Source of the DNA: Chrysophaeum taylorii
Lineage: Eukaryota; Sar; Pelagophyceae; Pelagomonadales; Pelagomonadaceae
NCBI GenBank assembly: GCA_029834535.1
Contig: JAQMWT010000320.1
Location: forward strand, 171,389-235,388
DNA length: 64,000 nucleotides
Reading direction: 5' to 3'
The number at the start of each line of letters is the position of its first letter. Position 1 is the first letter of the stretch. This document shows positions 18,301-63,922 of the stretch, piece by piece. Below the pieces are notes generated by a model. The model saw only the letters and a program-made list of their open reading frames with translations. It had not been told where the DNA came from and made no database searches. Position numbers and translations under genes: made by a program.

Positions 18301-18331
18301 AGAAAGGTGACCTTTCGCTCCCAGTTTCCTA

Positions 18332-42136: not shown

Positions 42137-42141
42137 GTCAT
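42137..42141. repeat. Target site duplication GTCAT, left of retrotransposon copy 1
   Basis: GTCAT lies immediately before the left LTR and again at 53692-53696 immediately after the right LTR. Five base pairs is the usual duplication length for Ty3/gypsy integrases. Confidence 0.9.
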
Positions 42142-42469
42142 TGTGGTGTAAGGAGAATTTTAGGGCTACCTGGCGTGCCTTCGAATCCTGGCTCGCCGCT
42201 CGCGTCCGCGCCCTTGGTGGAGTCACTGGACGAGGATGGCCGTTCTCCCACCACACAAGCACAAACAACTTCCGTACCTGGTCCTCACAACTTGAGGATC
42301 GGCTGTTGCTTTATGACTAAGAACACTTGAGTCAAAGAAATCGGGGAAGATGATGTCTTAACTACTAATCGACAGATGTTTGTTTGTCTGTCTGTCTGTT
42401 TGTTTGTTTGTTTGTCCCTCGATTTAGGGTAAGGATCAGGTAGGCGCGCGAGCCAGGCAGTGATTCCTC

Positions 42470-43000
42470 CAAGCCGTCTACGGCGACCTCGCAGACTGTT
42501 TCCACGACCCGCGGCGGCTCTTTCAGCGCGCCATTCTCACGCCCCGTCGAAACGATGTTGTCGATGCTGACAACGCGCGCATGACCGCGGCCTTTTTTTC
42601 CCGAAGACGAGGCGTCGGAGTTCTTTTCGGCCGACTAGGTTGGGTCGGAAGACGACGCCTCGCTCTTTACAGTCGAGTTTTCGACTCCCTGACAACCAAC
42701 GGCATGCTGACTTTGATCGCGAGCTTAAAGTCTTCGCAACCTCGACCCGTCGCACGGCCACTGCAACGGTACCAGATACATGATTGATCGTGTGGTGTCG
42801 CCGAGGCTCCTCCAACCTGTATCCCTTAAGGCCCGCCGACGCCAAACGATCGACAAGAGCCAGGGCCAGACGCTCCGCGAGGTCGGCGTCCTCTTGGCGA
42901 AGCCCGTCTTCTGCCACGTCCAGCTCTACGTGGCTCTCTGTCGATCGGCAACCCCGAGGATATCCTCTTCTGGGTCGACGACTCCACCCTACCTCACACG
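42470..43000 (+). pseudogene. C-terminal half of a Pif1/Helitron-type helicase, frameshifted
   Basis: Family-typical blocks occur in order but in different frames: VYGDLADCFHDPRRLFQ and RAILTPRRNDVVDADNARM (~42475-42580); FPEDEASEFFSAD (~42590-42630); SEDDASLFTVEF (~42648-42683); DSLTTNGM; NLDPSHGHCNGTRYMI (~42736-42783); KSQGQTLREVGVLLAKPVF with QLYVALCR (~42859-42945). These are motifs IV-VI of Pif1-family helicases as found in Helitrons and in cellular Pif1 proteins. At least three frameshifts separate them, so it is a pseudogene. N-terminal motifs I-III and any Rep domain are absent. Confidence 0.85.
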
Positions 43001-43052
43001 TGCTGCGCAATACCGATAAGCCCCCTCCCGGCGTCTACACGCGCACTTTAGG

Positions 43053-43180
43053 TTAACTTACTGGGACCAGGTGAACTTACTGGGGTTATAGATTGGGACT
43101 AGGTGAGCTGAGTGACCAGGTGAACTAACTGGGACCAGGTGAGCTAACTGGGACCAGGTGAACTTACTGGGGTGTTTAGA
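43053..43180. repeat. ~19-bp imperfect repeats (AACTTACTGGGACCAGGTG)
   Basis: The unit AACTTACTGGGACCAGGTG or close variants occurs about five times, and related sequence (AACTTACTGGGGTTAGAGATTGGGA) recurs at 43303-43340 near the end of the insertion. It probably belongs to the inserted element's terminal region. Confidence 0.8.
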
Positions 43181-43785
43181 GTAAACTCAAGGGTTGGCGG
43201 CGCGTGCGGATCAAAGCAGCTTGGATTGGCGGGGGTGAGAGCGACGAGCTCAAAGGAGAGTGGGGTGTGTGGGTGTGAGCACGAGTGGGTTTACGCCGAA
43301 CTTACTGGGGTTAGAGATTGGGAGTAGGTGAACTTACTGGCCTGCACTTGTCATATATAAAACTGACATCATCAGAACGGAGTAGGGTGCCCCTGAAAAG
43401 GGGGGGGCAGGAAGAGGGGTAAGCCTTAGGAAGGGGGAGTTGCCGCCACAGGACTCCCCTGGTAAGAATTCGAGCTGCCCCAGCGAGGTGCTAGCGCGAG
43501 GAGCGCGGCTTCGCCTTACGAGCATCTCGTGAACGAATCTTCTGGTAAACGCGGGTGATGACCGGTTCAGGAACTCGGCCACTGCGTAAAGTAAACTTGG
43601 GGATCAACACATCAATCTCGTGCGGAGCGAAATCCGTGACACAAGGAGTTGTGTTGGAGGAAATTCTGGACTTGTCGGTGAAACTTCGACCTTCAACGTC
43701 CTTGAACTCGGGCTTGAGTTTGCGGTGCGTGAGAGGTCGGCTTGAAATAAGCCACATCATCGTTCGGACCCAAATCGGAATAGAA

Positions 43786-44118
43786 CTAACTAACTAACTA
43801 ACTTCAGACCTCTCCCGAGCATGGGAGCCAGGCCGGACCGACAGGTGCCAGTCCGGAATCACGGGCCTGTAGACGAGGAGCGCCGAAAGGTCGGTCGGCG
43901 GAGAGTGACCATCAAGCTTGTCGCCATGCGACGAGGAGACCGCGATGTGACTGACAACCCACTCGTCGATAACCTTCCGTCTTCGCCCCCCGGCCATACC
44001 TCGTCCCACTGCGAACGTTCCGGCTGCCAACCGGCCCGCCCGGGAGGCGAATAGGTGCCAACCTACGCCGGGAGGGCGGATACCCTCGCAAGGCTCAGGA
44101 TTCATGAGGCACCGTCCT
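43786..44118 (-). mobile_element. SINE-like (or 5'-truncated LINE) insertion with 10-bp target duplication
   Basis: 333 bp absent from copy 2 interrupt the end of the element's coding region. The flanks CGGAATAGAA at 43776-43785 and 44119-44128 are a perfect 10-bp target duplication. Read on the minus strand the insert ends in four GTTA/TTAG units next to the duplication, as non-LTR retroposons do. I could not find convincing tRNA-type A and B boxes, so it may be a LINE-derived fragment. The frame 43794-44105 within it shows nothing recognisable. Confidence 0.85.
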
Positions 44119-45475
44119 CGGAATAGAAATGTACAGCAACACGATCATTTTGGTAATCGTAAGGCTCATAAACTTCAGCAACATAAATCTTCTTGCGCCA
44201 ATCAGAGCGCTTCCGGTCAGGAACCCGGAAAACAACAAACTTACCGTGCTGATAATCATCACGGAAGGTTTCTTCGGGTTTGCGGATGGCTCGATCAACG
44301 ATCGGAGGTACCATCACAGGCGTGATCTGACTAACATGAACACGTCGTTCTTCGGGCGGAGAGTCAAGAGACTCAATCCTATAGGTGACCGGGGAAAGGC
44401 GTTCCTTGATAATAAACGGTCCTCGCCATTCCGGTCGAAGTTTGTTCTGAAGGAAAGGAGTGTAGAGCAAAACATGCGATCCTTTCTTGTACTCAACATC
44501 GACATGATCGGCATTGTAGGCCAATCGTTGTTTCTTCAAATCTTTATCACGAGCCTCGCGGACGATCTTCGTATAATACTTCAATCGTTCACGAGTTTCG
44601 GCGACTGCATCAAAGCGAGTCTTCGGCAATAATCGCGTATCAAAGTCAATAAGCGTGTAGTCAGTCGGCAGCATCGGCTGACGGTTCAGGCGCAGCATAA
44701 AGGGAGAAATCTGCGAGCCTGGAATAAACTTGCGGTTATAGCAAAACGCAATATAATGAGCAAAGTCAGGCCAATCCGTGATGTTCCGGCCCTGAAGGCA
44801 AGCACGGAGGAAGGCCTTGATAAATAGGTTTACACGCTCAGCCGGGTTCGACTGGGCATGATAAGGAATCATACTTTGGTATCGTGTGTTGAAGAGATGG
44901 CAAAACTCGCGCATCAACTTGTTCACGAACTCTTTACCGTTGTCGGTACGAATCATCTGGGGCAAGTAGCCCTTGAGAAGAATGTTAATGACAAAAGACT
45001 CGAGGACAGACTCAGCAGTCTTATCGTTCAAAACATCCAGACTCAAGAATTGCGAGAACGGATCAAAAAACACTAGAAGATACGTCTCGGGACCAGCGCT
45101 GGGCAAGGGTCCAAATAAATCCATGCAAAGGACAGCACCATCACCATCGTAGACGGGCTGCTGCAAGAGTCCAGCTCGTTTCGGCTCAGGCGCACGAGCT
45201 TTCTGGCAAACTAAACATTCAGCAATGAAGACTCCAACTTCGTTCGACATGTGAGGCCACCAAAATCGTTCTTGGATAGCCTGGACGGTACTGTGACGTC
45301 CCATATGACCACCGTTAACCGGAGTGTCATGGTAGAGTCGAATAATGCGCTTGCGCAACGTAGCAGGTGCAACAATCATCGGGTGCAAATCAGCAGAAAT
45401 GCGGTAAAGAACGTCTTTAACGACTTCGAATCGTTCGTTCGCTCGGGAACGTCGCGGCGTCTGACCTTGGGCCAT
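44102..45475 (-). CDS. Retrotransposon integrase (copy 1), end replaced by the SINE-like insert
   Basis: Zinc-binding HHCC domain: H at LYHDTPVNGGH and CLVCQKA (residues ~50-95). Catalytic DDE core: first Asp in CMDLFGPLP (~118), second in RTDNGKEF (~178), Glu in NPAERVN (~214), spaced as expected. A C-terminal GPY/F-like stretch (LRPEWRGPFIIKERLSPVTY) follows, then a short chromo-like segment (IYVAEVYEPYDY). Acts in the nucleus to join element cDNA to host DNA. It is in the same frame as the upstream RT frame and separated from it only by one TGA at 45476-45478, which is CGA in copy 2; originally one polyprotein. The last five residues before the stop come from the SINE-like insert, so the normal C-terminus (continuing near 43490-43760) is cut off. 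Confidence 0.9.
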   Translation of the reverse strand: MAQGQTPRRSRANERFEVVKDVLYRISADLHPMIVAPATLRKRIIRLYHDTPVNGGHMGRHSTVQAIQERFWWPHMSNEVGVFIAECLVCQKARAPEPKRAGLLQQPVYDGDGAVLCMDLFGPLPSAGPETYLLVFFDPFSQFLSLDVLNDKTAESVLESFVINILLKGYLPQMIRTDNGKEFVNKLMREFCHLFNTRYQSMIPYHAQSNPAERVNLFIKAFLRACLQGRNITDWPDFAHYIAFCYNRKFIPGSQISPFMLRLNRQPMLPTDYTLIDFDTRLLPKTRFDAVAETRERLKYYTKIVREARDKDLKKQRLAYNADHVDVEYKKGSHVLLYTPFLQNKLRPEWRGPFIIKERLSPVTYRIESLDSPPEERRVHVSQITPVMVPPIVDRAIRKPEETFRDDYQHGKFVVFRVPDRKRSDWRKKIYVAEVYEPYDYQNDRVAVHFYSEDGAS

Positions 45476-48400
45476 TCAGTAGCGAATATCCTCGCAAGTA
45501 GCATCAGATTCTTGCTCACGTGCGATCTCAGCGAGCGTCATATTATCGGGTATCTTATCGATATAGTCTTTGTAAGCGGCTGCGTCCTTGAAGATCTGTG
45601 GCTCATCGCGCGCACGGTTCTTCCGACGTTGTCTCGTAGCGTGAGACGTAGCCAATTTTATCGGATCCTTTTCAGGATCTTCTTCCTCGTCTTCCGGCAG
45701 TTCGGTCGTAATAAACGACATTATGAAGTGGCAGCCGGAGGCGGGAATTCCTCGGTCATCAACAGGTCGGGGAAGCTCTTGGAACACCAAATAAGCGTGG
45801 TTCAAAGGCTCTCCAAACTCGTCAGTCTCGATGACATGGTCTATCGGATTGCGGGAGAGACAGTCAGGGATACTCATTCCCGGTGACTTTCCCGGCTTGA
45901 AACCAAGTTCAGGGTCAAAATTGGCGAGGCGCATCGCCCAACGAGCCAGCTGCCCAGACGAGTGCGTCGCCTTGCGTAAAAACGTCAAATTTCGGTGATC
46001 GGTCTCCGAAACAGTCCTGTGCCCTTCGATGCAGGCTCGAAAGTGCTCTAGAGAAAGTATAACTGCCAGTAGCTCTAGCCGACGGGGCTCGTAATTGCGG
46101 ATCTGCTTCGGCACAGCTCGGCTCCAATATTCAATCACTCGTTCTTCTCGAGTCACTCTTCCAGCATCGTCCTTGACTTCGACAATCTGGAAGAGATATG
46201 CTCCAAGTCCATCCTTGGAAGTATCGGATCGGATCTGAAAAGGCAGATCATAATCGGGGTGGTAGACTCCACGGGAATCAACCAAAGCTTCAATAATCGT
46301 ATCCCAAGCTTCCTGACACTCGGGCGTCCATTCGAACTTTACACCTTCGAGGCATAATCGTCTCAGCGGTTCCACGATCTTCGAATAGCCCTTCACATAT
46401 CGCCGGCAATAAATACTCATGCCGATGAAAGAGCGTATCTGGGTCTTCGGGGAAGTATTTGGCAAAGTACCTGGAATCGGCATCTTCTGCAGTGCTTCCA
46501 GCGTCTTCGGATTCGGCTTCAAGCCTTCTGGGGTAGAAATGTGTCCCAGAAATTCTATATCATCCTTGAGAAGGTGGAACTTCGCGGTTCGACCGCTGTA
46601 CCCTCTCTGTGCCAAATGACACATCACTTCGATCAAGACTTGTAAATGTCGATGAAGATCGTCGGATCCCATCATAATATCGTCAACAAACGCAACCAAG
46701 TCCCGATACATCCATTTCGGAAGGTCGCTCGCCATTTGCTTGCAGAAAAGAGCTCCGGCCGTCTTCACACCTAGAGGCAATCGCAAGAAACTATGAGCGC
46801 CAAGTGGGCTAACCATCGTGACAGCGTCTTGCGCTGCCGGATCCAGACGAAGGTTGTGGTATCCCCATCTAATATCAATGCATGTCCGCCATCGTCGCAT
46901 AGCGAGAAAAGCTAAAGCATCATCCTGTCGAATGTTCGGCCGACTGTCATTGACCAATTGATCGTTGAGCTGACGTAAGTTAACTGCAGCACGGAACGCG
47001 TTTGACGTTCCAATCTCAGCTCCTTTCTTCGGAAGCATCAACACAGGAAAGCCCAAAGGCGAGTTGGCCGGACGAAAGACTCCATCCCGGCACCACTCGC
47101 TGATCTGCTTGCGGAGACAATCGAGCTTCGCAGGCGTCAATCGGTAGGGCGTCATCTTAATCGGTCGCGGATTCGCGTCTTTGGATCGTAGAGACACAGG
47201 AGGCGAGTCCACAGGTCTCATAATCGGGTCGAAAAAGGCCCAAGAATACTGTACACAGTGACGGAGCATCCGTTTCGCCTCGTCATCTAAGTGCGGATTG
47301 TCAGGAATTCCCAGCTCCTGAACAACCTTGTCAACTTCTTCCTTCGTATGAACTTGAACTTTCATAGCTTCATTATCCTTGACATGCTCGGGAGTTTGTG
47401 GCAGCGGTGCACCCTCAGCATCGCGCGGCGCATCTTTCCATGGCACATCGAACTTTTTCTCATATTTAAGTCTCACTTCCGGGTGGCTTTTGTTGATCCT
47501 CTCGCCTTTGACACGAACACTCGGCTCGCTCTTAATCTTCGGTTCCCGATCTCGCTCAGGATCTAGCGGAACATCCAAATTTGGTTGTCGGGGGGGGGCA
47601 GCAAAAGAAGCATGAGACGTCCCCGGCTCATCTGTTGCAGGCGGAATCAACGGTACCTCTGGAGGTTTCCATTTGGTGCGATCTTGGAGATCATCAGTCG
47701 ACACCAATCTTACGACACGTGTGCGCGTGTTTAACAGCGGAGCTTGTACGTGACGAAGGGTGGTTTCATCAAATTGCAAATAATAATCAAACGGTCGCTC
47801 TGCAGAACTCAACGCTGACGGCAAAGCTTCGCCGCTCAGGTGAAAATCCTTGGTCACAGAGTTGTGCAGATCGAGTACTAATAAGGTCGTCGTGTCTGGT
47901 GGTACGACGGACGCCAAGTGTTTCAACGAGGTCGTCCTGGAGAAGCCGGCCCAATCAAAATCAAGGGGCATCGTCAGCAACTCCGAAGTCATTTTCAGAT
48001 TCAGAGATCTGTAATCGGAACGGTGCGGTCCTACGCGAAGCGGGACACGCGTAACGGTATAAGCTGCGTCTGTCGCGGCTCGTGATGATCCTAAATTGTT
48101 CATCTGAAGTAAATGTCGTTCGTCGGCGTAGCCAAGCGCAGCGGCGAACTTTCGTTGCATATTCTTGCAAGTCTTTGGAACTGCGCGCAAATGGAGCGGG
48201 TGGCTGGAAACCAACAATCGCACGCGACAGCTCTTCAAACTGGGCGTTATGTTGTAAAAATTGACGACGTGCACGTAAGGGTGCAAACGTGCAACGTAAG
48301 AAATAATCGAGGCCTCCTGCTCTATCAACCACATGAAGAAATCAGCCATCTTGCATAATTTCATCGTCCAGTGGGTAGCGGTGACTCCCTTGCCAACATC

Positions 48401-49231
48401 TCTGGAAGTCAAGTTGCACAGAGCGGAGTGTACGCAGGGTGGCGACGCGACACACATCGACGACGACCATTCCGCGTAGGGTAAATAAGATTCGATCAAC
48501 CGTAAGTTTGTAACATAGCGACCACACAGTGTGTGCTGCACCACAGGAATATTCGGAAAGTTCTTGTGGTGGATCTGGTTGGCGGTGTCCGACGCATCGA
48601 GTGCTAGCACGACTCGAAACGACGTCCCACACATTTCGTTGGCTCTTTGGAGACCTAAAGTACTGCCTCCGGCTCCACTGAACAGCATCACCACCTTGCG
48701 ATAAGTGATTGGAAGCCATTGAACCTTTTCGTATCGGCGGCGGATCTCCGCTTCGGTGATCTCGCGGCACTTCTTTTCATCTTCTTCCGACCCTCGAGCG
48801 AAATCGTCGCTGCCTTCGGGTCGTCTGAGGTTGGACTTGTCCGCCATAGCGGTCGTGGCGTCCTTCTGCGCCGTGCTCAACAACATCGGCGGGGGAGACG
48901 CGTCGCAATGCGTCAAATGACTAGCGACGGAAACGGTGAAAGAAAGGTCCCCCTTGTCGTATCCTTCTTCACATTCTTTCGTAAGTTCGTTGATCGTAGA
49001 GACGTTCAACTCACCTTCGTACCTAACAATACCGCCAATCGCAAGGACTTCGCCTTGAGTGACGACCGTCGGCACTTCTTCCGCGGCAGTAACCGCAACC
49101 CGAGCAGCGGACCGGTCGTGGTCTTCGCAAGAAGAACACATTCTTTCGACAACTCCCAACTGCTCGTTTTCAGCAAACGTAGCAACGAAAACCTGTCCCA
49201 TTTCCATAGGTTTCGACAAAATAACCGGCAA
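45476..49231 (-). CDS. Methyltransferase-reverse transcriptase-RNase H polyprotein (copy 1, 1,251 aa)
   Basis: Residues 1-110: the segment after the protease (PVILSKPME...). Residues 180-445: C5-cytosine DNA methyltransferase (separate entry). Residues ~540-610: basic/Pro linker. Residues ~615-900: Ty3/gypsy reverse transcriptase with PYRLTPAKLDCLRKQI, GFPVLMLPKKG, CIDIRWGYHNLRL, LPLGVKTAGALFCKQM and the catalytic AFVDDI box (847-852). Residues ~995-1115: RNase H with Asp1003 (RSDTSKDGLGAYL), Glu1053 (LELLAVILSLEHF) and Asp1078 (ETDHRNL). It ends DIRY then TGA, directly followed by the integrase ATG in the same frame. The methionine at 49231 is only the first one in this frame; the frame is open upstream into the protease region, so translation probably enters by read-through of a larger polyprotein. 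All catalytic residues of RT and RNase H are present. Confidence 0.95.
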   Translation of the reverse strand: MPVILSKPMEMGQVFVATFAENEQLGVVERMCSSCEDHDRSAARVAVTAAEEVPTVVTQGEVLAIGGIVRYEGELNVSTINELTKECEEGYDKGDLSFTVSVASHLTHCDASPPPMLLSTAQKDATTAMADKSNLRRPEGSDDFARGSEEDEKKCREITEAEIRRRYEKVQWLPITYRKVVMLFSGAGGSTLGLQRANEMCGTSFRVVLALDASDTANQIHHKNFPNIPVVQHTLCGRYVTNLRLIESYLPYAEWSSSMCVASPPCVHSALCNLTSRDVGKGVTATHWTMKLCKMADFFMWLIEQEASIISYVARLHPYVHVVNFYNITPSLKSCRVRLLVSSHPLHLRAVPKTCKNMQRKFAAALGYADERHLLQMNNLGSSRAATDAAYTVTRVPLRVGPHRSDYRSLNLKMTSELLTMPLDFDWAGFSRTTSLKHLASVVPPDTTTLLVLDLHNSVTKDFHLSGEALPSALSSAERPFDYYLQFDETTLRHVQAPLLNTRTRVVRLVSTDDLQDRTKWKPPEVPLIPPATDEPGTSHASFAAPPRQPNLDVPLDPERDREPKIKSEPSVRVKGERINKSHPEVRLKYEKKFDVPWKDAPRDAEGAPLPQTPEHVKDNEAMKVQVHTKEEVDKVVQELGIPDNPHLDDEAKRMLRHCVQYSWAFFDPIMRPVDSPPVSLRSKDANPRPIKMTPYRLTPAKLDCLRKQISEWCRDGVFRPANSPLGFPVLMLPKKGAEIGTSNAFRAAVNLRQLNDQLVNDSRPNIRQDDALAFLAMRRWRTCIDIRWGYHNLRLDPAAQDAVTMVSPLGAHSFLRLPLGVKTAGALFCKQMASDLPKWMYRDLVAFVDDIMMGSDDLHRHLQVLIEVMCHLAQRGYSGRTAKFHLLKDDIEFLGHISTPEGLKPNPKTLEALQKMPIPGTLPNTSPKTQIRSFIGMSIYCRRYVKGYSKIVEPLRRLCLEGVKFEWTPECQEAWDTIIEALVDSRGVYHPDYDLPFQIRSDTSKDGLGAYLFQIVEVKDDAGRVTREERVIEYWSRAVPKQIRNYEPRRLELLAVILSLEHFRACIEGHRTVSETDHRNLTFLRKATHSSGQLARWAMRLANFDPELGFKPGKSPGMSIPDCLSRNPIDHVIETDEFGEPLNHAYLVFQELPRPVDDRGIPASGCHFIMSFITTELPEDEEEDPEKDPIKLATSHATRQRRKNRARDEPQIFKDAAAYKDYIDKIPDNMTLAEIAREQESDATCEDIRY
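47897..48694 (-). other. C5-cytosine DNA methyltransferase domain inside pol (copy 1)
   Basis: Residues 180-445 of the pol frame. Motif I FSGAGGSTLG (184-193) binds S-adenosylmethionine; motif II LALDASDTANQIHHKNFPN (209-227); motif IV SPPC (263-266) with the catalytic cysteine 266 after the Pro pair; motif VI is IEQE (303-306) where the family has ENV; motif VIII CRVRLLVSS (335-343); motif IX LKMTSELLTMPLDFDW (412-427); a motif X-like VVPP (442-445) where most have GNAVPP. The ~65 residues between VIII and IX would be a small target-recognition region. The order and spacing are those of Dcm/DNMT-type enzymes. The usual Asn and Val of motif VI are missing although the Glu is kept, so activity needs proof. 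Confidence 0.9.
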
Positions 49232-50525
49232 ATTGTAAGTTCGACCGGGCTCGATTTGAAACGCGCGCAGCGTAAGCCACTACTTCTCGCGCGTCTTCTC
49301 CCGGAGCTGGGGAGAATTTGGTCGTAGCATGTCCCCGCGTAGCCAAGGCTACCGTGCGTTCCGGCGGCGGGCTTCGGAGATCTTTAATCGTGCTCAAACG
49401 AGCGTAAACTCGAGTCTTGACCAGGTCGAGACTCTTCCGAAAGGCATCGTGTTGATGATTGTAAATCGGTACGGTTATCGGATCTCGATCGTAAATAGAT
49501 CGAAAGGTCACGATTGGTGCATCGATTCGTTCGTCCTTGAACTTAATCTTCTTGCGCCCGTAGACGACTTGGGTTCGATAAAAACAGATCCGATCGTGGG
49601 GATAGTCCACGACGGCTCCTAAAACTCGTATATCGCGCCCTCCCAACAGGAACAGATAGTTCGTATCGGCCACAATAGCGACAATGGGGGCGGCGATGTT
49701 GTCGGCGAGGGCGACCCGAATCGCGATCCAACGAAAGATCGTCGTCGTATTCAACCCTGATCCGTACAGCTTGCGCTTAATCGGAAGTTCGCCTTTATCG
49801 AAAATCAACTGATCTTTGGCCAACTTTCTGACCATTTCTCGGCAAATAAAAGAAACATCTGCCATTCCATCGACACCGATGGTCGTCGAGAATTTCGGTC
49901 CGTCACGATTCCTGTAGATGTGACAGGCTATAAACGTAAGAGTACCCGTATCTAAACAACTGATGGTAACCAAATCATCTTCGATCGTCTTGCCGTCTCG
50001 CGGCGTCAACGAAGTGTGAGCACGTCGGGCTCTGACTCGCTCATCTACGGGGTTGGGCATCGATACCGCGGCTTGAGTTTTCGTATCATCTGTTGTTGGC
50101 GTCATCGACGTAACGCTCGCGGCAGCCTCTTTATCTGGCGGCTTCCGCTCTTCCTCCAAGACAATCTCGGAGGGAATCAGTGCTGGTAGGGGATCCTGAT
50201 CTTCGTAGTTCTCGGAAGCAAAGGACCTCTCCCATAACTCATTCATTTCGTCTTTCCAGAATGCATCCGTAGATTCATTCGTCGTTGGTTGATCATCACC
50301 ATCATCGGCGATCGGTTCCGTGTCGGCTGCGGCTTCGAGTCCGTAGCTGAGCGGTTGTTCTGGTGGCTTCTTTAGCAAGAAGTTCCGAGTTCTCGTCCAC
50401 CAATCCTGCAGGTTCCACGTCGGCTCGTCTTCGTCCCAATTCAGAACGCTGCTAATCTTCTTCTTAAGTCTATCCTTTTCTTCCGGCGGCGTGTCCATGG
50501 CTCTATCCGTAGTAATCGAAACCAA
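49170..50525 (-). CDS. Retropepsin-like protease region (copy 1), in a different frame from its neighbours
   Basis: 451 residues from the frame start; the first in-frame methionine may not be the real start. Residues ~1-190 are an acidic, low-complexity linker. Residues ~212-320 follow the retroviral protease plan: STTIGVDGMADVSFICREMVR (active-site turn), then a hydrophobic strand pattern, then FLLGGRDIRVLGAVVDY, which matches the I-L-G-x-D-x-L flap end. The active-site triplet is Asp-Gly-Met (219-221) in place of Asp-(Thr/Ser)-Gly; a plain DTG occurs earlier (192-194) but lacks the surrounding pattern. It should mature the polyprotein if active. The frame is -1 relative to the upstream 50441-51748 frame and the downstream pol frame returns to that original frame, which suggests two compensating indels or frameshifting. 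Confidence 0.7.
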   Translation of the reverse strand: MVSITTDRAMDTPPEEKDRLKKKISSVLNWDEDEPTWNLQDWWTRTRNFLLKKPPEQPLSYGLEAAADTEPIADDGDDQPTTNESTDAFWKDEMNELWERSFASENYEDQDPLPALIPSEIVLEEERKPPDKEAAASVTSMTPTTDDTKTQAAVSMPNPVDERVRARRAHTSLTPRDGKTIEDDLVTISCLDTGTLTFIACHIYRNRDGPKFSTTIGVDGMADVSFICREMVRKLAKDQLIFDKGELPIKRKLYGSGLNTTTIFRWIAIRVALADNIAAPIVAIVADTNYLFLLGGRDIRVLGAVVDYPHDRICFYRTQVVYGRKKIKFKDERIDAPIVTFRSIYDRDPITVPIYNHQHDAFRKSLDLVKTRVYARLSTIKDLRSPPPERTVALATRGHATTKFSPAPGEDAREVVAYAARVSNRARSNLQFAGYFVETYGNGTGFRCYVC

Positions 50526-51748
50526 TTCGGGGGGTCCGCAGGAAAAGATGGCGTCGTCCCCGACGTCAACTCTATCGTAAGATCGTCGTCTGCATTACTC
50601 GCGCTGGTCATCGTCTCGTTCGTCGAATGATCACACGAGCTATCACTGCAGAAATCCATGTCTGGCTCACAGCCAGTTCGGTCGCCAACGGTCGTCTCTG
50701 GAGGGTCCAAAGATAAGCCGATGGCATCGAGGGCTTCCTCGTCAAAAACAAACGGTGTGTCGTCAGTGGACGACTCGTCAAATAACGTTATCGCGGACAC
50801 TGGTTCACACGGTGTAGCTTCGTCATCTTCCGAATCTGAATCGCCTTCACAGTATCGTGGAGCTTCGAGTTCATCGCTCGAATCTTCGAGTTTATTGCTC
50901 GACATCTGCTCATAAATCTGTGCCAAAGACCGACGATTGGTCAGCACGTCGTTGGGTGGCTCGTCCATCGGCGGGCGAGCAAGATCTTCGAATGTGGCCG
51001 CGGCAAGGGCGTCGGCTGCGTCGTCGGTGCGGGTGTCCGTGTTCGGGTACACCATCACTCCTAATGGTAACTGTTGACCGCACGGGGTCGTAAACGCGAG
51101 CGTTGCGCTCAAAAAACCCAAATTATATTGGTGTCGGCCTCCGTCGTATTCGTCGTCGCGCGATCGGCGTCGTCTGTGCCGGTGCGAACTTCGACTGGGG
51201 CTCTTGTTATCTTTGTCTCTCTCTGGCGTCAGTTCGGCAGGTCCTATTACCTCTGGATCGTCCCTGTAGGCGACTGGTGCTCCCAAGCCTATCCGAACTG
51301 TCTCAATCGTCTCGTCTATCGAAACATCGACACATGCGTCGTCTTCTTGCCAAAACTCCGACCAAACGTGAATTAAATCTCCGTTGGCGAATAAATCCAT
51401 GCCTCGGGGTCGGAATCGCACTTCTTTCCGCTCTGGCGGTTTCTTCCTCAGGAAACAGTGAGCTCGTATCCATATCGTCGGTACGCTCATCTTCCTATTA
51501 TCCATGCTGATCGTCCCATCCAACTTCGATTCCGGGCGGCAGCTATACTCATCCCTCATAGTATGTTCGGGATCTTTCTTTATCACATAGCCATCATCAT
51601 ATGCAGGCTGAAAATCCTTGAGCTCTTCGTTCGTGAGTAATACGCCAGGGCTTTCACAGAGCTCCAAGGGCCGTTCATGCGTTATAAGGTTCTTCACCTC
51701 TTCCGCTTTCGTATTCATTTTCTCGGCCGTTTTCGGCCTATCATCCAC
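50441..51748 (-). CDS. Gag-proximal acidic/basic frame of copy 1
   Basis: 435 residues from ATG 51748. The N-terminal half (MDDRPKTAEKMNTK...) has no counterpart in copy 2. After residue ~200 (an Arg-rich RSSHRHRRRRSRDD patch) the sequence matches copy 2 at 56750-57360, with VMVYPNTDTRTDDAADALAA and SSDELEAPRYCEGDSDSEDD, a long acidic linker. No CCHC zinc knuckle is visible. Probably the C-terminal part of Gag and the linker to the protease. Its frame equals the pol frame of 45476-49231. Confidence 0.6.
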   Translation of the reverse strand: MDDRPKTAEKMNTKAEEVKNLITHERPLELCESPGVLLTNEELKDFQPAYDDGYVIKKDPEHTMRDEYSCRPESKLDGTISMDNRKMSVPTIWIRAHCFLRKKPPERKEVRFRPRGMDLFANGDLIHVWSEFWQEDDACVDVSIDETIETVRIGLGAPVAYRDDPEVIGPAELTPERDKDNKSPSRSSHRHRRRRSRDDEYDGGRHQYNLGFLSATLAFTTPCGQQLPLGVMVYPNTDTRTDDAADALAAATFEDLARPPMDEPPNDVLTNRRSLAQIYEQMSSNKLEDSSDELEAPRYCEGDSDSEDDEATPCEPVSAITLFDESSTDDTPFVFDEEALDAIGLSLDPPETTVGDRTGCEPDMDFCSDSSCDHSTNETMTSASNADDDLTIELTSGTTPSFPADPPNWFRLLRIEPWTRRRKKRIDLRRRLAAF

Positions 51749-52254
51749 CCATCGCTTAGAATATCGGCAATCGCCTCGTCACTAAAAATGTCGGCACACG
51801 AAATGTCTGCCATCGTCAGGGAACAAAACATCTGCAAAAACGTCTGCAATCGGTTCGTCGGGGGCCTGCCAAAGAAGAAGGCGTCGTCCCCGACGTCATA
51901 TCTGTCAAAAAATGGCCACCAAAGGGCACGTGAAGTTCGATGGGTGTGTACACAGGTGCGCGCTTATCATTCGAGGTAATCCTCTGCGACGCACCGTCGA
52001 TCGATCGTGGAGACGAAGTGTCATCCACTTGAATGTCCGGAGGTAGACTCATAGCATCGAGCGTAGCAGCGGCGGGTCCATTCCTTGGGCGTCATCGGCT
52101 GCACGGGGCTCGTAAATCGGATTCACACATAACTCCGGCGCGTCGTCAAAACCGAGGGTTGTGTCAGCTGACGACAAATCATATCGTGCCACCAACGGTG
52201 ACACCGGGTCAGAAGCGGTTGTCCGCTTCGGCCCGTAGTTTAACGACGTTTCGG
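51749..52254 (-). other. Gag region of copy 1 with broken frames
   Basis: Several short frames with protein-like pieces, for example FDRYDVGDDAFFFGRPP near 51890, which resembles YDRVDVGDDAIFSCGPP near 50560 and so may be a local duplicate. The capsid-like frame present in copy 2 (55569-56627) is not found here. Confidence 0.5.
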
Positions 52255-53376: not shown

Positions 53377-53691
53377 TGTGGCGTAAGGAGAATTTTAGGG
53401 CTACCTGGCGTACCTTCGAATCCTGGCTCGCCGCTCGCGTCCGTGCCCTTGGTGGAGTCACTGGACGAGGATGGCCGTTCTCCTGCCACACAACCACAAA
53501 CATCTTCCGTGCCTGGTCCTCACAACTTGAGGATCGGCTGTTGCTTTATGATTAAGAACACTTGAATCAAAGAAATCAGGGAAGATGATGTCATATAGAA
53601 AACTGACATCATCAGAGCGGAGTAGGGTGCCCCTGATAAGGGGGTGCCATAGAAGAGGGGTGAGCCTTAGGAAGCGGGAGTTGCCGCCACA
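53377..53691 (-). repeat. 5' LTR of copy 1 (315 bp)
   Basis: Plus-strand reading starts TGTGGCGTAAGGAG and ends TTGCCGCCACA, with perfect 7-bp terminal inverted repeats. Contains TGATGTCA at 53586-53593 and TGACATCA at 53604-53611, which form an inverted pair resembling bZIP/CRE sites. It should hold the element's promoter. Confidence 0.95.
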
Positions 53692-53696
53692 GTCAT
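53692..53696. repeat. Target site duplication GTCAT, right of copy 1
   Basis: Matches 42137-42141 exactly and directly follows the LTR end CCACA. Confidence 0.9.
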
Positions 53697-54017: not shown

Positions 54018-54355
54018 TGTGGCGGCAACTCCCGCCTCCTACGGCTTACCCTTCATTTAGCCCCCCTCCCCTTATCAGGGGCACCCTACTCCGTTCTGAT
54101 GATGTCAGTTTTCTCTGTGACATCATCTTCCTTTTCCGTGACATGTGTCACCCTGATTTCTGTGATTCGATAATATGTTAATCATAAAGCAACAGCCGAT
54201 CCTCAAGTTGTGAGGACCAGGCACGGAAGTTGTTTGTGGTTGTGTGGCGAGAGAACGGCCTTCCACGTCCAGTGACTCCATCAAGGGCGCGGACGCGAGC
54301 GGCGAACCTAGATTCGAAGGTGCGCCAGGTAGGCACAATTTCTCCTAACGCCACA
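54018..54355 (+). repeat. 5' LTR of copy 2 (338 bp)
   Basis: Starts TGTGGCGGCAACTCCCGCC and ends TCTCCTAACGCCACA with the same terminal inverted repeat as copy 1. TGATGTCA (54100-54107) and TGACATCA (54118-54125) are conserved. An AT-rich stretch, GATAATATGTTAAT near 54170, could serve as a TATA region. Confidence 0.95.
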
Positions 54356-54357
54356 GG

Positions 54358-54375
54358 TGGTGGAGGAATACGAGA
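54358..54375 (+). other. Candidate primer binding site of copy 2
   Basis: TGGTGGAGGAATACGAGA two bases after the LTR end, identical to copy 1. Confidence 0.5.
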
Positions 54376-54454
54376 CTCGAGCGACCATGTCGGTCGCAGC
54401 GAACGGGTGCATCTTGCATTCTCTACACGGTCCGGACAAGCCGTGCGCGCCCTG

Positions 54455-54802
54455 ATGAAGCGCGCCGACGAAGAGTTCAAGAGGGACCATCGCCGTGGGA
54501 AAGTTCCCCGGCCATATACGCTTGTCGTCGGAGGCGACGACGCGCGGATCGGTTCGAGCCGACGCGCAACCCGGGTACCGCTGCCGCAGGCGAGCGGTGT
54601 GAGATCGCAACTCACCGAGGAAGTGCTTGCCGGGCAGAGACGAAATCTGCCGCCCGCCGGAACTGATAAATCGGTCGGTGGAAGACGCGCGCGGCGACGA
54701 TATTGCGCGTGTCGTGGACGAGTAGAAGTCCCAGAGTCGGAGGAACACGAGGACAACGACGACTCAACCGCTTTGCTTTTTGTTCTGACTTTGGCCGATT
54801 AG
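54455..54802 (+). CDS. Conserved leader-proximal frame of copy 2
   Basis: ATG at 54455 (MKRADEEFKRDHRRGKVPRP). Matches copy 1 at 53014-53295 through RRATRVPLPQASGVRSQLT, then diverges. Probably the N-terminal part of Gag, as it precedes the coiled-coil frame by 18 bp. No known domain. Confidence 0.45.
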   Translation: MKRADEEFKRDHRRGKVPRPYTLVVGGDDARIGSSRRATRVPLPQASGVRSQLTEEVLAGQRRNLPPAGTDKSVGGRRARRRYCACRGRVEVPESEEHEDNDDSTALLFVLTLAD

Positions 54803-54819
54803 AGCGAGCCGGAGCCGAT

Positions 54820-55278
54820 ATGGAGGAAGATGATGCTGCTGACGAGCAGATACGAGAACCCGAACCTTCAAGTCGCCCCGAGGGGACGAACGAGCGGAAC
54901 GATGATGATGACGATGAAGGTGATGATAATGATGATAAGGATCATGCTACCGACGGTGATGACGATGAAGAAGAGCTGGACTACGACGACGGTAAGCCGG
55001 TGGAAGCGCCGCCGGAGAGACAACCGACAGCTCCATCAACAACTGCGCGAAACCCAGATGCAACGAACATGAACGAGTTTTATGAAGCTCATCTACGCGC
55101 GTTACGTCGAGAAAACGAACGCGCGCAAGAGAGATTTCTACAGCAGATCGCGGAAGAAAACGATCGGAAAGAACGGCTACGCCGGAAGGAGGCAGAAGAG
55201 TTGCGCGAGCAAGTGCGGAAAGCGAACTCGAGCAGACGAACTCCAAGCTCGATCCGGGGAACCTTCAAGATCGAGTAG
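54820..55278 (+). CDS. Gag-like coiled-coil protein of copy 2 (MEEDDAAD...)
   Basis: About 152 residues from ATG 54820. Acidic N-terminus, then coiled coil (HLRALRRENERAQERFLQQI, RKERLRRKEAEELREQVRKA). Shorter than the 221-residue equivalent in copy 1 because of a stop at 55276-55278; the homologous Arg/Ser-rich tail continues in another frame to about 55410. Confidence 0.6.
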   Translation: MEEDDAADEQIREPEPSSRPEGTNERNDDDDDEGDDNDDKDHATDGDDDEEELDYDDGKPVEAPPERQPTAPSTTARNPDATNMNEFYEAHLRALRRENERAQERFLQQIAEENDRKERLRRKEAEELREQVRKANSSRRTPSSIRGTFKIE

Positions 55279-55568
55279 TTTATTGACCCGAGAAAGGGGC
55301 GATTTACGTACGCCGAGTCGATCGAGGCGAGCGAGCAGCCCGGGATCCCGACCCGAGGAAGAGCCGCCGCTACACGAACACGCGAAAGCAGAAGCCGCGC
55401 TATGATGACGATGATTACGAAACTAAGGACGAGACGCATGACGACGGGAAGATCGACAAGCAGAAGTTCCTCATGGAGTTCACTGACCGGTTCGCCAGCG
55501 CGCTAGCTAAACACGATCGCAGCAAGGATCGGCGATCAACCTCCGGATTAAAGACTGAAACGATTTAA

Positions 55569-56627
55569 TTGGTTCTTGATGGTCGCGACCAGGGCCAGTT
55601 CGATTTAGATGCAGACGCAGTGATGAGTACGTTAGCCGAAGACCATTTTAGCATGAAAAAGCTGCGGTACCTACTGCCAGAAAGCTTACGCGACACGGCC
55701 GCACCGATTTTCCGAGAACACTTGAAGAAATATAAGGGCGAGTGCAAGGATCTCGACCATCCGGCGTCTTTTTATTTACGTCGGGATATCGACGATGATG
55801 AGTACGGTTCAGTGGTACGACGATTACGACGACTGAACAGGGAGTACTGCCTCAAGATTTTGAGATACTTCCGATCGAGTTGCCCTTTGCCTATGACGAC
55901 AGAGGGATTATTACGAAAGCTTCAGGGTACGACCCAGGCGACCGTTCCGAAACGACCTGGGGAACGCCATGTGCACACTTACTGCACCAAATTCCAGAGC
56001 GAGGCGATGGCCTACTGCTCTGTGGCCAACCGAGACCCCAATGATGTTGAGATCATTTCTTATTTGATACGTGGACTGGAGTCCAACGAGCTACGATCCC
56101 GCGTGCGAACCATGCGCAGCGGGCACCCGACTACGTATAATACGCTTACGTCGACGTTGTCACTGATTACGCGGCTCGAGAACGACTACGCGACCGCGTT
56201 GGCGGAGCGGAGCAGCCGCAATTCGCCGAGCCCGTCGAGCGGGAAGCCGCAGAAACCGCCGTCTGGACGCGGAGGCCGAGCGCTAGCTTCAGGGCCGAAG
56301 GATAAGAAGACGAAATATGAGTCGTTGCGTTTTGAAGAGAATCCGAAAATGGTACGAGCTCACATGCAAGGATTTTGGATTTTCCCTATCGACCCACGAA
56401 GGATGAACATAGGAGCCGCGTCATTTACACCCACGAACCCGATGGCTATTATGTTGCGATGTGTAAGTACATCGAAAATGATAAGAAACCTCTCTCTCGA
56501 GGCAGATGGGAGAGTCGACAGAAGAAGGATACCCAGTCGCGCGATGATGGCAGTTCAAATGCCACTCTCGGTTCGAGCGCCGCTCACGATACTCAGAGCA
56601 GACTCAACGACATGGGCACACAGCTGA
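55569..56627 (+). CDS. Gag capsid-like protein of copy 2
   Basis: About 352 residues; the frame opens with a TTG, so the start is unknown and the protein probably continues from upstream Gag. It is mostly helical: FSMKKLRYLLPESLRDTAAP, ASFYLRRDIDDDEYGSVVRR, ERHVHTYCTKFQSEAMAYCS and NDVEIISYLIRGLESNELRS have the look of retrotransposon Gag capsid, where the matching region says the protein multimerises and then binds RNA. A Ser/Pro/Arg-rich stretch follows. After ~56370 the homologous reading moves to another frame (56375-57022). No equivalent is found in copy 1. Confidence 0.6.
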   Translation: MVLDGRDQGQFDLDADAVMSTLAEDHFSMKKLRYLLPESLRDTAAPIFREHLKKYKGECKDLDHPASFYLRRDIDDDEYGSVVRRLRRLNREYCLKILRYFRSSCPLPMTTEGLLRKLQGTTQATVPKRPGERHVHTYCTKFQSEAMAYCSVANRDPNDVEIISYLIRGLESNELRSRVRTMRSGHPTTYNTLTSTLSLITRLENDYATALAERSSRNSPSPSSGKPQKPPSGRGGRALASGPKDKKTKYESLRFEENPKMVRAHMQGFWIFPIDPRRMNIGAASFTPTNPMAIMLRCVSTSKMIRNLSLEADGRVDRRRIPSRAMMAVQMPLSVRAPLTILRADSTTWAHS

Positions 56628-57530
56628 CCACGGTCATGGATTCCGTGAAGCACTTGAAAGATGGACACGGCCGATCGTCTTCGACACGACCGGGCCGTCG
56701 AGATAGCCGGAGCCCCGACGCCGCGACAAGAGCCGTAGCAGCTCGCGTCCGCGCCGACGGAAAGAAAGCCGGAGCCCTAGCAGACATTCGCGCCGACAAG
56801 GGCGACGAAGATCTCGCGATCGCAATTCGACGATGGACGTTACCGAGAAGACTCGGGTCATTCGTCTGCTACGTTCGCGTTTACGACTTGCGGTCAACAG
56901 TTACCATTAGAGTGATGATGTACCCGAACACGGACACCCGCCCGACGACGCAGCCGACGCCCTTGCCGCATTCGAAGTTAGTGCTCGCCCGCCGCCGGAC
57001 GAGCCACCCAACGAAGTGCTGACCGATCGTCGGTCCTTGGCACGGATTTATGAAGAGATGTCGAGCGATGAACTCGAAGAGTCGAGCGATGAACTCGAAG
57101 CTCCACGATACTGGGAAGGCGATTGACGGAAGACGAAGAAGCTACACCTTGTGAACCAGTGTCCGCGATTACGTTACTTGACGAGTCGTCCCGGACGACC
57201 AGTTTGTTTTTGACGAGGAAGCCCTCGACGCTATCGGCTTATCTTGGACCCTCCAGACCTTGGCGACCGGCTGGCTGTGAGCCGACATGGATTTCTGCAG
57301 CGATAGCACGGATGATCATTCGCAGATGAGACGATGACCATGCGAGATGCAGACGACGATCTTACGATAGAGTTGACGTCGGGACGACGCCATCTTTTCC
57401 TGCGGACCCCGAAACGGTTTCGGTTACGACGGATCGAGCCACGGATACGCCGCCGGAAGAAAGATACTAAATCGCATATGCGTCGGACGAGAAGCGTGCA
57501 CGGTCCGAAGACGGGACGCTTCTGAGAAGA
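56375..57530 (+). pseudogene. Gag C-terminus and linker of copy 2, frameshifted
   Basis: The frame 56375-57022 (MDFPYRPTKDEHRS, then an Arg/Ser-rich patch GRSSSTRPGRRDSRSP) and following short frames match the second half of the copy-1 frame 50441-51748: TDTRP, SSDELEAPRYWEGD (stop at once), EEATPCEPVSAITLLDESS, DADDDLTIELTSG. At least three frame changes. Confidence 0.75.
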
Positions 57531-57579
57531 GAGCAGTGACGGCGTTGCCGGAGTCGAGCCGAACCCGACCGAAGAAGAT

Positions 57580-58508
57580 GGATTTAAGAAGAAGATTAGC
57601 AGCGTTCTCGATTGGGACGAAGACGAGCCGACGTGGAACCTGCAGGATTGGTGGACGAGAACTCGGAACTTCTTGCTAAAGAAGCCACCAGAACGACCGC
57701 TCAGCTACGGAATCGAAGCCGCAGCCGACACGGAACCGATCGCCGATGACGGTGATGATCAACCGATGACGAATGAATCTACGGATGCATTCTGGAACGA
57801 CGAAATGAATGAGTTATGGGAGAGGTCCTTTGCTTCCGAGAACAACGAAGATCGGGATCCCCTACCAGCACTGATTCCCTCCGAGATTGTCATGGAGGAA
57901 GAGCGGAAGCCACCAGATAAAGAGGCTGCCGCGAGCGCTGCGTCGATGACGCCGACGATAGATGATACGAGAGCTCAAGCCGCGGTGTCGATGCCCAACC
58001 CCGGCGACGAGCGAGTCAGAGCCCAATGTTCTCACACTTCGTTGACGCCGCGAGATGGCAAGACGATCGAAGATGATTTGGTTACCCTCAGCTGTTTGGA
58101 TACGGGTACTTATGGCTTGTCACATCTACAGGAATCGTGACGGACCGAAATTCTCGACGACCATCGGTGTCGATGGAATGGCAGATGTCTTTTATTTGCC
58201 GCGAAATGGTCAGAAAGTTGGCCAAAGATAAGTTGATTTTCGATGAAGGCGAGCTTCCGATTAAGCGCAAGCTGTACGGATCGGGGTTGAATACGACGAC
58301 GATCTATCGTTGGATCGCGATTCGGGTCGCTCTCGCCGACGACATCGCCGCCCCCATTGTCGCTATTGTGGCCGACACCAACTATCTGTTCCTGTTGGGA
58401 GGGCGCGATATCCGAGTTTTAGGAGCCGTCGTGGACTACCCCCACGATCGGATCTGTCTTTATCGAACCCAAGTCGTCTACGGGCGCAAGAAGATTAAAG
58501 TAGGGTGA
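57580..58508 (+). pseudogene. Protease region of copy 2, frameshifted
   Basis: From about 57580 (KKKISSVLDWDEDEPTWNLQ) the frame 57673-58140 matches the copy-1 linker, then breaks at YGLSHLQES. The frame 58137-58508 continues with GMADVS-equivalent sequence, a retained FLLGGRDIRVLGAVVDY, and ends early. Copy 2 has about 110 bp between the Gag end and KKKISSV that copy 1 lacks. Confidence 0.8.
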
Positions 58509-59118
58509 ACGAGTCGATGCACCATTGTGACCTTTCGATCTGTTTACGATCGAGACCCGATAACCGTGCCGATTTACAATCATCAGCACGACGCCTTTCG
58601 GCAGAGTCTCGACCTGGTCAAGACTCGAGTTTACGCTCGTTTGAGCACGATTAAAGATCTCCGCAGCCCGCCGCCGGAACGAGCGGTAGCCTTGGCGACG
58701 CGGGGACATTCTACGACCAAATTCTCAGCTCCGGGAGAAGCCGCGGGAAGTAGTTGCTTACGCTGCGCGCGCTTCAAATCGAGCCCGGTCGAACTTACAA
58801 TCTACCGGTTATTTTGTCGAAGCCTATGGAAAAAGGACATTTTCGTCGCTACGTTTGCTGAAAACAGTTGAGTTGTCGAAGGGATGTTCTTCTTGCGAAG
58901 AGCACGACCGGCCGTTCTGTGGTTACTTCCGCGGAAGAAGTGCCGACGGTCGTCACTCAAGGCGAGGTTCGCGATTGGCGACATCGTTCGGTACGAAGAT
59001 GAGTTGAACGTTTCTACGATCAACGAGCTTACGAAAGAATGTGAAGAAGGATACGACAAGGGAACCTTTCTTTCACCGTTTCCGTCTAGTCACTTGACGC
59101 CAGACGAATCTCCCGCCG

Positions 59119-60633
59119 ATGTTGCTGAGCACGGCGCAGAAGGACGCTACAGCCGCTGCTGTGGACGAGTCCTCCTCAAACGACCCAAAGGAGACGACGA
59201 TTTCGCTCGAAGGTCGGAAGAAGATGAAAGAAAGCCGCGAGATCACCGAAGCAGAGATCCGCCGCTACGAAAGGTTCAATGGCTTCCAATCACTTATCGC
59301 GGTGGTGATGCTGTTCAGTGGAGCCGGAGGCAGCACTTTAGGTCTCCAACGAGCCAACGAAATGTGTGGGACGTCGTTTCGAGTCGTGCTAGCACTCGAT
59401 GCGTCGGACACCGCCAACAAGATTCACCGCAAGAACTTTCCGAATATTCCTGTGGTGCAGCACACGCTTTGTGGTCGCTATGTTACAACCTTACGGTTGA
59501 TCGAATCTTATTTACCTTACGCGGAATGGTCGTCGTCGATGTGTATCGCGTCGCCACCCTGCGTACACTCCGCTCTGTGCAACTTGACTTCCAGAGATGT
59601 TGGGAAGGGAGTCACCGCTACCCACTGGACGATGAAATTATGCAAGATGGCTGGTTTCTTCATGTGGTTGATAGAGCAGGAGGCCTCGATTATTTCTTAC
59701 GTTGCACGTTTGCACCCTTACGTGTACGTCGTCAATTTTTACGACATAACGCCCAGTTTGATGAGCTGTCGCGTGCGGTTGTTGGTTTCCAGCCATCCGC
59801 TCCATTTGCGCGCAGTTCCCAAGACTTGCAAGAATATGCAACAAGAGTTCGCCGCTGCGCTTGGCTACGCAGACGAACGGCATTTACTTCAGATGAACAA
59901 TTTAGGATCATCACGAGCCGCGACAGACGCAGCTTATACCGTTACGCGTGTCCCGCTTCGCGTAGGACCGCACCGTTCCGATTACAGATCTCTGAATCTG
60001 AAAATGACTTCGGAGTTGCTGACGATGCCCCTTGATTTTGATTGGGCCGGCTTCTCCAGGACGACCTCGTTGAAACACTTGGCGTCCGTCGTGCCACCAG
60101 ACACGATGGCCTTATTAGTTCTCGATCTGCACAACTCTGTGACCAAGGATTTTCACCTGAGCGGCGAGACATTGCCGTCCGCGTTGAGTCCTGCAGACCG
60201 ACCGTTTGATTATTATTTGCAAATCGATGAAACCACCCTTCGTCACGTACAAGTTCCGCTGTTAAACACGCGCACACGTGTCGTAAGATGGGTGTCGACT
60301 GATGATCTCCAAGATCGCACCAAATGGAAACCTCCAGAAGTGCCTTTGATTCCGCCTGCAACAGATGAGCCGGGGACGTCTCATGCTTCTTCTGCTGGCC
60401 CCCCCCGACAACCAAATTTGGACGTTCCGCCAGATCCCGAGCGAGATCGGGAACCGAAGATTAAGAGCGAGCCGAGTGTTCGTGTCAAAGGCGAGAGGAT
60501 CAACAAAAGCCACCCGGAAGTGAGACTAAAATACGAGAAAAGTTCGATGTGCCATGGAAAGATGCGCCGCGCGATGCTGATGGTGCACCGCTGCCGCAAA
60601 CTCCCGAGCATGTCAAGGATAACGAAGCGATGA
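59119..60633 (+). CDS. C5-cytosine DNA methyltransferase of copy 2 (open 504-aa frame)
   Basis: First methionine at 59119; the frame holds the full domain: motif I FSGAGGSTLG (residues 66-75), motif II LALDASDTANKIHRKNFPN, motif IV SPPC (~145-148), IEQE at the motif VI position, motif VIII CRVRLLVSS, motif IX LKMTSELLTMPLDFDW, VVPP. It differs from copy 1 at roughly ten residues across the domain (for example Q-K, H-R and N-T in motif II/III). The frame shifts only past 60540, in the linker before RT. About 500 codons remain open here, whereas every other coding part of this copy is broken. Methylates cytosine in DNA if active; nuclear action is inferred. Confidence 0.85.
   Translation: MLLSTAQKDATAAAVDESSSNDPKETTISLEGRKKMKESREITEAEIRRYERFNGFQSLIAVVMLFSGAGGSTLGLQRANEMCGTSFRVVLALDASDTANKIHRKNFPNIPVVQHTLCGRYVTTLRLIESYLPYAEWSSSMCIASPPCVHSALCNLTSRDVGKGVTATHWTMKLCKMAGFFMWLIEQEASIISYVARLHPYVYVVNFYDITPSLMSCRVRLLVSSHPLHLRAVPKTCKNMQQEFAAALGYADERHLLQMNNLGSSRAATDAAYTVTRVPLRVGPHRSDYRSLNLKMTSELLTMPLDFDWAGFSRTTSLKHLASVVPPDTMALLVLDLHNSVTKDFHLSGETLPSALSPADRPFDYYLQIDETTLRHVQVPLLNTRTRVVRWVSTDDLQDRTKWKPPEVPLIPPATDEPGTSHASSAGPPRQPNLDVPPDPERDREPKIKSEPSVRVKGERINKSHPEVRLKYEKSSMCHGKMRRAMLMVHRCRKLPSMSRITKR
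59302..60099 (+). other. Methyltransferase domain span in copy 2
   Basis: Region equivalent to 47897-48694 of copy 1, from motif I to the motif X-like VVPP. No frameshift or stop in the 266 codons. Confidence 0.9.
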
Positions 60634-61910: not shown

Positions 61911-61935
61911 CGAGACTGACGAGTTTGGAGAACCT

Positions 61936-63620: not shown

Positions 63621-63922
63621 GTCGCTTATTTCAAGCCGACCTCTCACCTTCGCACCGCAAGCTCAAGCCCGAGTTCAAGGACGTTGACGGTCGCAATTTC
63701 ACCGACAAGTCCAAATCTCATCCAGCACAACTCCTTGTGTCACGGATTTCGCTCCGCACGAGATTGATGTGTTGGTCCCAAGTTTACTTTGCAGTGGTCG
63801 AGTTCCCTGAACCGATCATCACCCGCGTTTACAGAAGATTCGTTCACGAGATGCTCGTAAGGCGAAGCCGCGCTCCTCGCGCTAGCCGCCTGCTGGCAGC
63901 TCGAATTCTTACCAGGGAGTCC

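Follow-up and report, generated by a model that had tools for sequence, protein, structure and literature searches.

Introduction

As a rule, DNA methylation serves the host as a defence against transposons. In the window (the whole stretch of 64,000 nucleotides analysed), a C5-cytosine methyltransferase had been noticed inside the pol region of a Ty3/gypsy retrotransposon. This raises the question of whether the enzyme is a genuine and maintained part of the element, where it came from, and on which nucleic acid it might act.

Results

Structure of the element

The element is a Ty3/gypsy LTR retrotransposon, in which Pol is arranged in the order protease-like region, C5-cytosine methyltransferase, reverse transcriptase (RT), RNase H, and integrase (Table 1). 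The methyltransferase, RT, and RNase H lie in P0001, a single open frame of 1267 codons (45479-49279, minus strand): in Pfam, its latter half matches RVT_1, RT_RNaseH, and RT_RNaseH_2, and PF00145 falls closer to the start. The integrase piece is in the same frame, parted from the RT frame in the window copy by a single in-frame TGA (45476-45478). The protease-like P0003 is in a different frame from P0001 in this copy; neither P0003 nor the possible gag piece P0004 gave a match in the Pfam search.

The alignment of the two LTRs, which takes in one flanking base and has 8 gap columns, shows 94.0% identity (296 of 315 bases). Both start with TGTGGCG, and they end with CGCCACA in the 5' copy and CACCACA in the 3' copy. 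Two characters by which Ty3/gypsy elements are recognized are present: TG...CA LTRs with a short target duplication (ATGAC on both sides), and the order RT, RNase H, integrase. Ty3-G Gag-Pol (PDB 7q5b) was among the best PDB matches (E 1.6e-42). The original sighting of a C5-methyltransferase in the pol of such an element is confirmed as real. The family has another copy in the window, oppositely oriented and bearing frameshifts and stops, in which the methyltransferase part falls within 59113-60540.

Table 1. Features of the retrotransposon and of the second copy (window positions)
Feature	Position	Strand	Basis
5' LTR, TGTGGCGG...CGCCACA	53377..53691	-	LTR comparison
P0004, frame piece further upstream, possibly gag	50444..51778	-	position only
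P0003, protease-like pattern, upstream of methyltransferase	49173..50594	-	pattern by eye
C5-cytosine methyltransferase domain, P0001 residues 181-483	47831..48739	-	profile match, predicted fold
Motif IV SPPC with catalytic Cys	48434..48445	-	alignment
Motif VI catalytic Glu, EQE replacing ENV	48320..48322	-	alignment
Motif VIII Arg-x-Arg	48218..48226	-	alignment
Motif X VPP (SVVPP)	47897..47905	-	alignment
RT and RNase H, P0001 residues about 690-1267	45479..47212	-	Pfam
Integrase piece (H2C2, rve, p58_C)	44105..45475	-	Pfam
3' LTR proximal part, begins TGTGGCGG	43349..43450	-	LTR comparison
988-bp insert splitting 3' LTR	42361..43348	.	LTR comparison
3' LTR distal part	42142..42360	-	LTR comparison
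Target-site duplication ATGAC, downstream side	42137..42141	.	matches 53692-53696
Target-site duplication ATGAC, upstream side	53692..53696	.	matches 42137..42141
Second copy, same family, runs to window end	54018..64000	+	similarity

Identity and fold of the methyltransferase domain

The PF00145 search proposed in the initial annotation gave 21.6 bits for the window copy (E 1.7e-4), just below the Pfam cut-off of 22. Among the related pols described below, P0027 scored 27.1 bits, P0018 13.3, and P0017 13.2, and P0014 and P0016 had no PF00145 match. The best PDB match of the domain profile was 3g7u, a bacterial (prophage) C5-methyltransferase (E 3.5e-5); in this search the matches to DNMT2 and DNMT1 were weak (E 0.011 and more), and DNMT3 was not matched. 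The predicted structure of the domain has the C5-methyltransferase fold, and the 50 VIA-align matches listed are C5-methyltransferases only. An earlier AF2 model, made from a poorer alignment with database-enzyme rows, had a pLDDT of 32 and was not used. In the protein database, no match at E 0.001 was obtained for P0001 residues 170-500 among 3480 candidates, and profile A1 likewise had none at this threshold; at E up to 1 it found 8 proteins, all with PF00145 in the precomputed list.

The catalytic residues are retained. In alignment A4, columns C103, E141, R173, and R175 are invariant against pols whose domains are 21-32% identical to that of the window. The Glu of motif VI in the window family aligns with the ENV of P0025, P0027, and database enzymes. 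Loss of motif VI was considered and rejected: when the window family was aligned by profile on its own, the reference ENV fell near VVNFY, and with P0025 and P0027 included, the Glu of WLIEQEAS matches WTIENVPP. Motif X reads GNMVPP in P0025, ANMVPP in P0027, and CNMVPP in P0016. In P0014, motif I is lost and the Cys, Glu, and Arg-x-Arg remain, so that AdoMet-dependent activity may be dispensable in some members.

Copies in the source genome and selection

Searching the source genome with P0001 gave at least 45 matches (a lower bound, as 37 of 1916 candidates were scored), with open frames of up to 3067 amino acids; several lower-ranking matches end short of the methyltransferase part. The 20 best-scoring matches were taken as loci L001-L020, L001 being the window's own copy. 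The domain region is present in all 20, a count that is no sample of all copies because the loci were picked by similarity to P0001; the domain is accordingly not confined to one locus. Motif I (F-x-G-x-G-G) is FSGAGG in 15 loci, altered in four, and frameshifted in one. The catalytic Cys is kept as SPPC in 19 of the 20, L019 having RRHC from a shifted frame, and the motif VI Glu, each Arg of motif VIII, and the VPP of motif X, the last without its usual Asn (SVVPP), are kept in every locus. Stops occur inside the domain in L005, L015, and L020, and the frame is broken in L018 and L019.

Judging from codon comparisons, the domain is under purifying selection. Nei-Gojobori dN/dS of L020 (77% identical) against each of the 18 copies L001-L018 was 0.091 for the domain, 0.038 for RT, 0.067 for RNase H, and 0.161 for the linker; all 18 comparisons share L020 and equal one contrast, this sole divergent copy itself has two stops, and the domain dS, above 1, is near saturation. 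L019 was left out because of its broken frame. When the 18 close copies were compared with one another, the ratio of means came to 0.220 for the domain, 0.218 for RT, and 0.332 for the linker; the motif IX-X part of the domain had the highest ratio of the parts measured, 0.484.

Other methyltransferase genes of the genome

A PF00145 search of the same genome gave at least 121 matches (123 of 474 candidates scored). They include L021 (69.6 bits), which we take to be TRDMT1-like, and L022 (65.4 bits), presumably DNMT5-like, whose RING match was insignificant (E 0.23). About 55 of the PF00145 matches listed have the profile pattern of a second methyltransferase-bearing repeat family. The 28 members read (L023-L050) share LPCQH and an ENV-like motif VI, and in L032 and L037 a protease-like LIDGGAS pattern precedes the methyltransferase. 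Profile comparison of three members with the window's domain did not support kinship (probability 0.6%), and the two families are apparently unrelated, as far as these profiles tell. If so, this would be a host in which such capture is repeatedly favoured.

Relatives and origin of the domain

The related pols were recovered by a search with the RT region; the domain-only searches of the protein database had missed them. Five related pols contain the domain region, and so does a transcript from a pelagophyte. The latter relative, P0016, is 47% identical over 80% of the RT-region query and is the one pointer to an ochrophyte host. It is a transcript of Chrysocystis (Pelagophyceae) that starts inside the domain, and its C-terminal part matches the profile, in which it is not included, at 57.9 bits. 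P0014 is another MMETSP transcript, and P0017, P0018, P0025, and P0027 come from public assemblies. When 46 proteins were searched with the domain profile, 7 matched; six of these, P0001 among them, had themselves contributed rows to it.

For the RT tree, 37 of 45 proteins were available after omission of 8 that start within RT or are without it; P0047 and P0056 were dropped for length, leaving 35 together with the window copy and L020. All eight methyltransferase-bearing sequences (window, L020, P0014, P0016, P0017, P0018, P0025, and P0027) fall in one clade (support 0.998), which also holds P0013 and P0015, starting only 118 and 203 residues before RT. The 27 other sequences lie outside this clade; the domain profile hits none of them at domain E < 0.1, but several are too short upstream of RT to be informative. 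In the midpoint-rooted methyltransferase tree, P0016 groups with P0025 and P0027, unlike in the RT tree; the deep nodes are weak (0.455 and 0.725), and this tree, poorly resolved at depth, is a weak test of congruence with the RT tree. Scans of viral contigs with P0001 and P0027, and of genome contigs with P0018, gave no related locus confirmed by tblastn.

The initial annotation had suggested a separate capture. The single RT clade, the bacterial C5-methyltransferase as best PDB match, and the missing DNMT3 match speak for this; it is likely, and short of proven, that an old capture took place of another methyltransferase type than in the published Dnmt3 Gypsy case (KnitGypsy), from whose description the window lineage is set apart.

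CpG footprint

Transitions per cell among 18 copies were 0.0174 at CpG, 0.0137 at CHG, 0.0168 at CHH, and 0.0179 at A/T: C-to-T change at CpG is not in excess in these copies. CpG observed/expected was 1.26 and 1.35 in the two elements, compared with 1.32 in window positions 1-42000. Together these values give no sign of lasting CpG methylation. Methylation of the integrated copies is thus unsupported so far, as these have no CpG-deamination footprint.

Discussion

The retained catalytic residues together with the selection on the domain favour an active enzyme. Since the CpG decay expected of methylated copies is absent, we lean towards action on a replication intermediate or towards methylation that is not maintained; the former would account for strong selection without a CpG-deamination footprint. 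We consider it reasonably probable that a single ancestral capture was followed by retention of the domain, by selection, as a working Pol part that methylates the replication intermediate. The simplest history has a single capture in the founder of a lineage of retrotransposons that is known from the source genome, one pelagophyte, a further MMETSP transcriptome, and assemblies in public databases. Made together with Pol, the domain would be located where cDNA arises. Before integration, it might methylate cytosines in the freshly made cDNA or in RNA or hybrid intermediates, and the methylated incoming DNA might thereby get through a host check aimed at DNA that is unmethylated or deaminable. 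A more specific proposition, that the methyltransferase is a core, lineage-defining Pol part of an old Ty3/gypsy clade and acts on RNA, RNA-DNA hybrid, or cDNA but not on the chromosome, is offered tentatively and is rather doubtful.

It should be added that several observations point away from capture and retention of a working enzyme: the sub-cut-off Pfam score, the EQE of motif VI, the Asn-less motif X, the loss of motif I in P0014, the dependence of dN/dS on one divergent copy and a nearly saturated dS, the ratio of 0.484 in the motif IX-X part, the poorly resolved methyltransferase tree with its deviating place for P0016, the pLDDT of 32 of the first model, and the absent CpG footprint. 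Some of these would fit a pseudo-enzyme, kept for a fold that binds AdoMet, RNA, or DNA and aids assembly or reverse transcription, with no methylation: motif VI (EQE) and motif X (SVVPP) are non-canonical, P0014 is without motif I but keeps the Cys, Glu, and Arg-x-Arg, and no deamination footprint is seen. However, invariance of these residues at 21-32% domain identity is hard to account for without catalysis, and 15 of the 20 loci retain an unchanged FSGAGG (it is altered in four and frameshifted in one), which makes this explanation unlikely.

Action on the chromosome, where the enzyme would methylate or silence host or sibling DNA and so limit or shield the element, fits with the presence of the further methyltransferase gene L022 (presumably DNMT5-like) and with the de novo CG methylation by SymbioDIRS-Dnmt3 domains in yeast, reported in PMC5890265. 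But the copies have no CpG-transition excess and the window no CpG depletion, and we regard such action as quite improbable. The sub-threshold Pfam score of the window copy and the two domain searches of the protein database that were empty at E 0.001 could be taken to mean chance resemblance, or a chance insertion unique to the window locus; against this, the region occurs in 20 of 20 loci examined, five related pols, and a pelagophyte transcript, and has a predicted C5-methyltransferase fold, so that chance is hardly credible. Capture with retention of a working enzyme is the explanation we prefer. With related elements elsewhere carrying the domain too, such transposons can retain an enzyme type with which hosts ordinarily silence them.

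Comparison with known systems

Captures by retrotransposons in algae and dinoflagellates, mentioned in the initial annotation, are indeed in print for dinoflagellates and a charophyte alga (PMC5890265). As De Mendoza et al. 2018 (PMC5890265) describe them, KnitGypsy-Dnmt3 of Klebsormidium nitens is a Gypsy LTR retrotransposon whose Pol frame includes a Dnmt3, is multi-copy with Ka/Ks < 0.2, and has repeats arranged as in DIRS; Symbiodinium has DNMTs in DIRS and LINE elements (SymbioDIRS-Dnmt3 and SymbioLINE-Dnmt). De novo CG methylation was demonstrated there for SymbioDIRS, and the KnitGypsy test was inconclusive. DNMT3 in Copia and DIRS elements is mentioned in PMC12344493. By titles and abstract openings in open PubMed Central, no report was found of a C5-methyltransferase in a stramenopile Ty3/gypsy element.

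The bacterial C5-methyltransferases (3g7u, M.HhaI, and M.HaeIII) share the fold, the Cys, the Glu, and the Arg-x-Arg with the window's domain. They differ in being stand-alone enzymes, and the aligned database rows have canonical ENV, GNAVPP, and a longer stretch before motif IX. The Symbiodinium elements likewise encode a C5-methyltransferase, which in SymbioDIRS shares an ORF with RT, but by their description they are a DIRS element (tyrosine recombinase) and a LINE, whereas the window family is an LTR element with an rve-type integrase. KnitGypsy-Dnmt3 resembles the window family in its DNMT inside a Gypsy Pol frame, its multiple copies, and purifying selection (about 0.09 in the window family, compared with a Ka/Ks < 0.2 in KnitGypsy). 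Compared by description, it is unlike in its Dnmt3 and DIRS-like repeats, in place of a domain with a bacterial C5-methyltransferase as best PDB match and ordinary direct LTRs. The window lineage therefore appears to be the same kind of thing as the elements of De Mendoza et al. 2018, yet a separate old capture. Its domain, of a type that looks unlike the Dnmt3 of the known Gypsy case, seems to have been kept by the transposon through the divergence of a whole element clade. What a retrotransposon gains from methylation thus becomes a comparison between probably independent captures, for which this multi-copy family is a system where target and timing of methylation can be measured.

Methyltransferase repeats in the C. 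taylorii genome

A PF00145 search of the C. taylorii assembly revealed a second repeat family carrying a C5-methyltransferase (L023-L050), which is apparently unrelated to the domain in the Pol of the Ty3/gypsy element in the window. About 55 of the matches listed have the profile pattern of this family, and the 28 that were read contain the motifs AGGLHQEGF, LPCQHLS, ENV, and ANAVPHH. In two of these loci (L032 and L037), a protease-like pattern lies upstream of the methyltransferase.

In addition, about 60 short matches among those listed cover motif I only, for example on contigs C386, C677, and C344, with scores near 22 bits that are identical in many of them. They are mostly on contigs absent from the list of own-genome matches of the element's protein P0001. 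These might be further copies, or might belong to another methyltransferase-bearing family.

Features of the window

The second copy of the element is in the opposite orientation and is interrupted by frameshifts and stops.

Further features of the window
Feature	Position	Strand	Remarks
REJ-domain protein	2743-5853	-	
Open frame	6428-16792	-	3454 aa; many internal repeats; GC skew 0.20-0.30 over 8-16 kb
Reverse transcriptase, further	18311-19663	+	PF00078
Long ankyrin-repeat protein	33059-34624	+	
AAA/ABC-type ATPase matches	39403-40425	+	Weak, under their cut-offs
Insert in 3' LTR of element	42361-43348		988 bp; contains repeats of type AGTTCACCTGGTCCC
Second copy of element	54018-64000	+	5' LTR from about 54018

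Related pols and probable host methyltransferases

In the related pol P0014, from an MMETSP transcript, AdoMet motif I was lost; the Cys, the Glu, and Arg-x-Arg were retained. Other gypsy pols among the listed matches (P0030, P0053, and P0039) have PF00628 (PHD finger) or PF00692 (dUTPase) in the precomputed Pfam list. The same PF00145 search yielded two probable host methyltransferases: L021, a 360-aa gene presumed to be TRDMT1 (DNMT2)-like, and L022, whose frame is presumably DNMT5-like.
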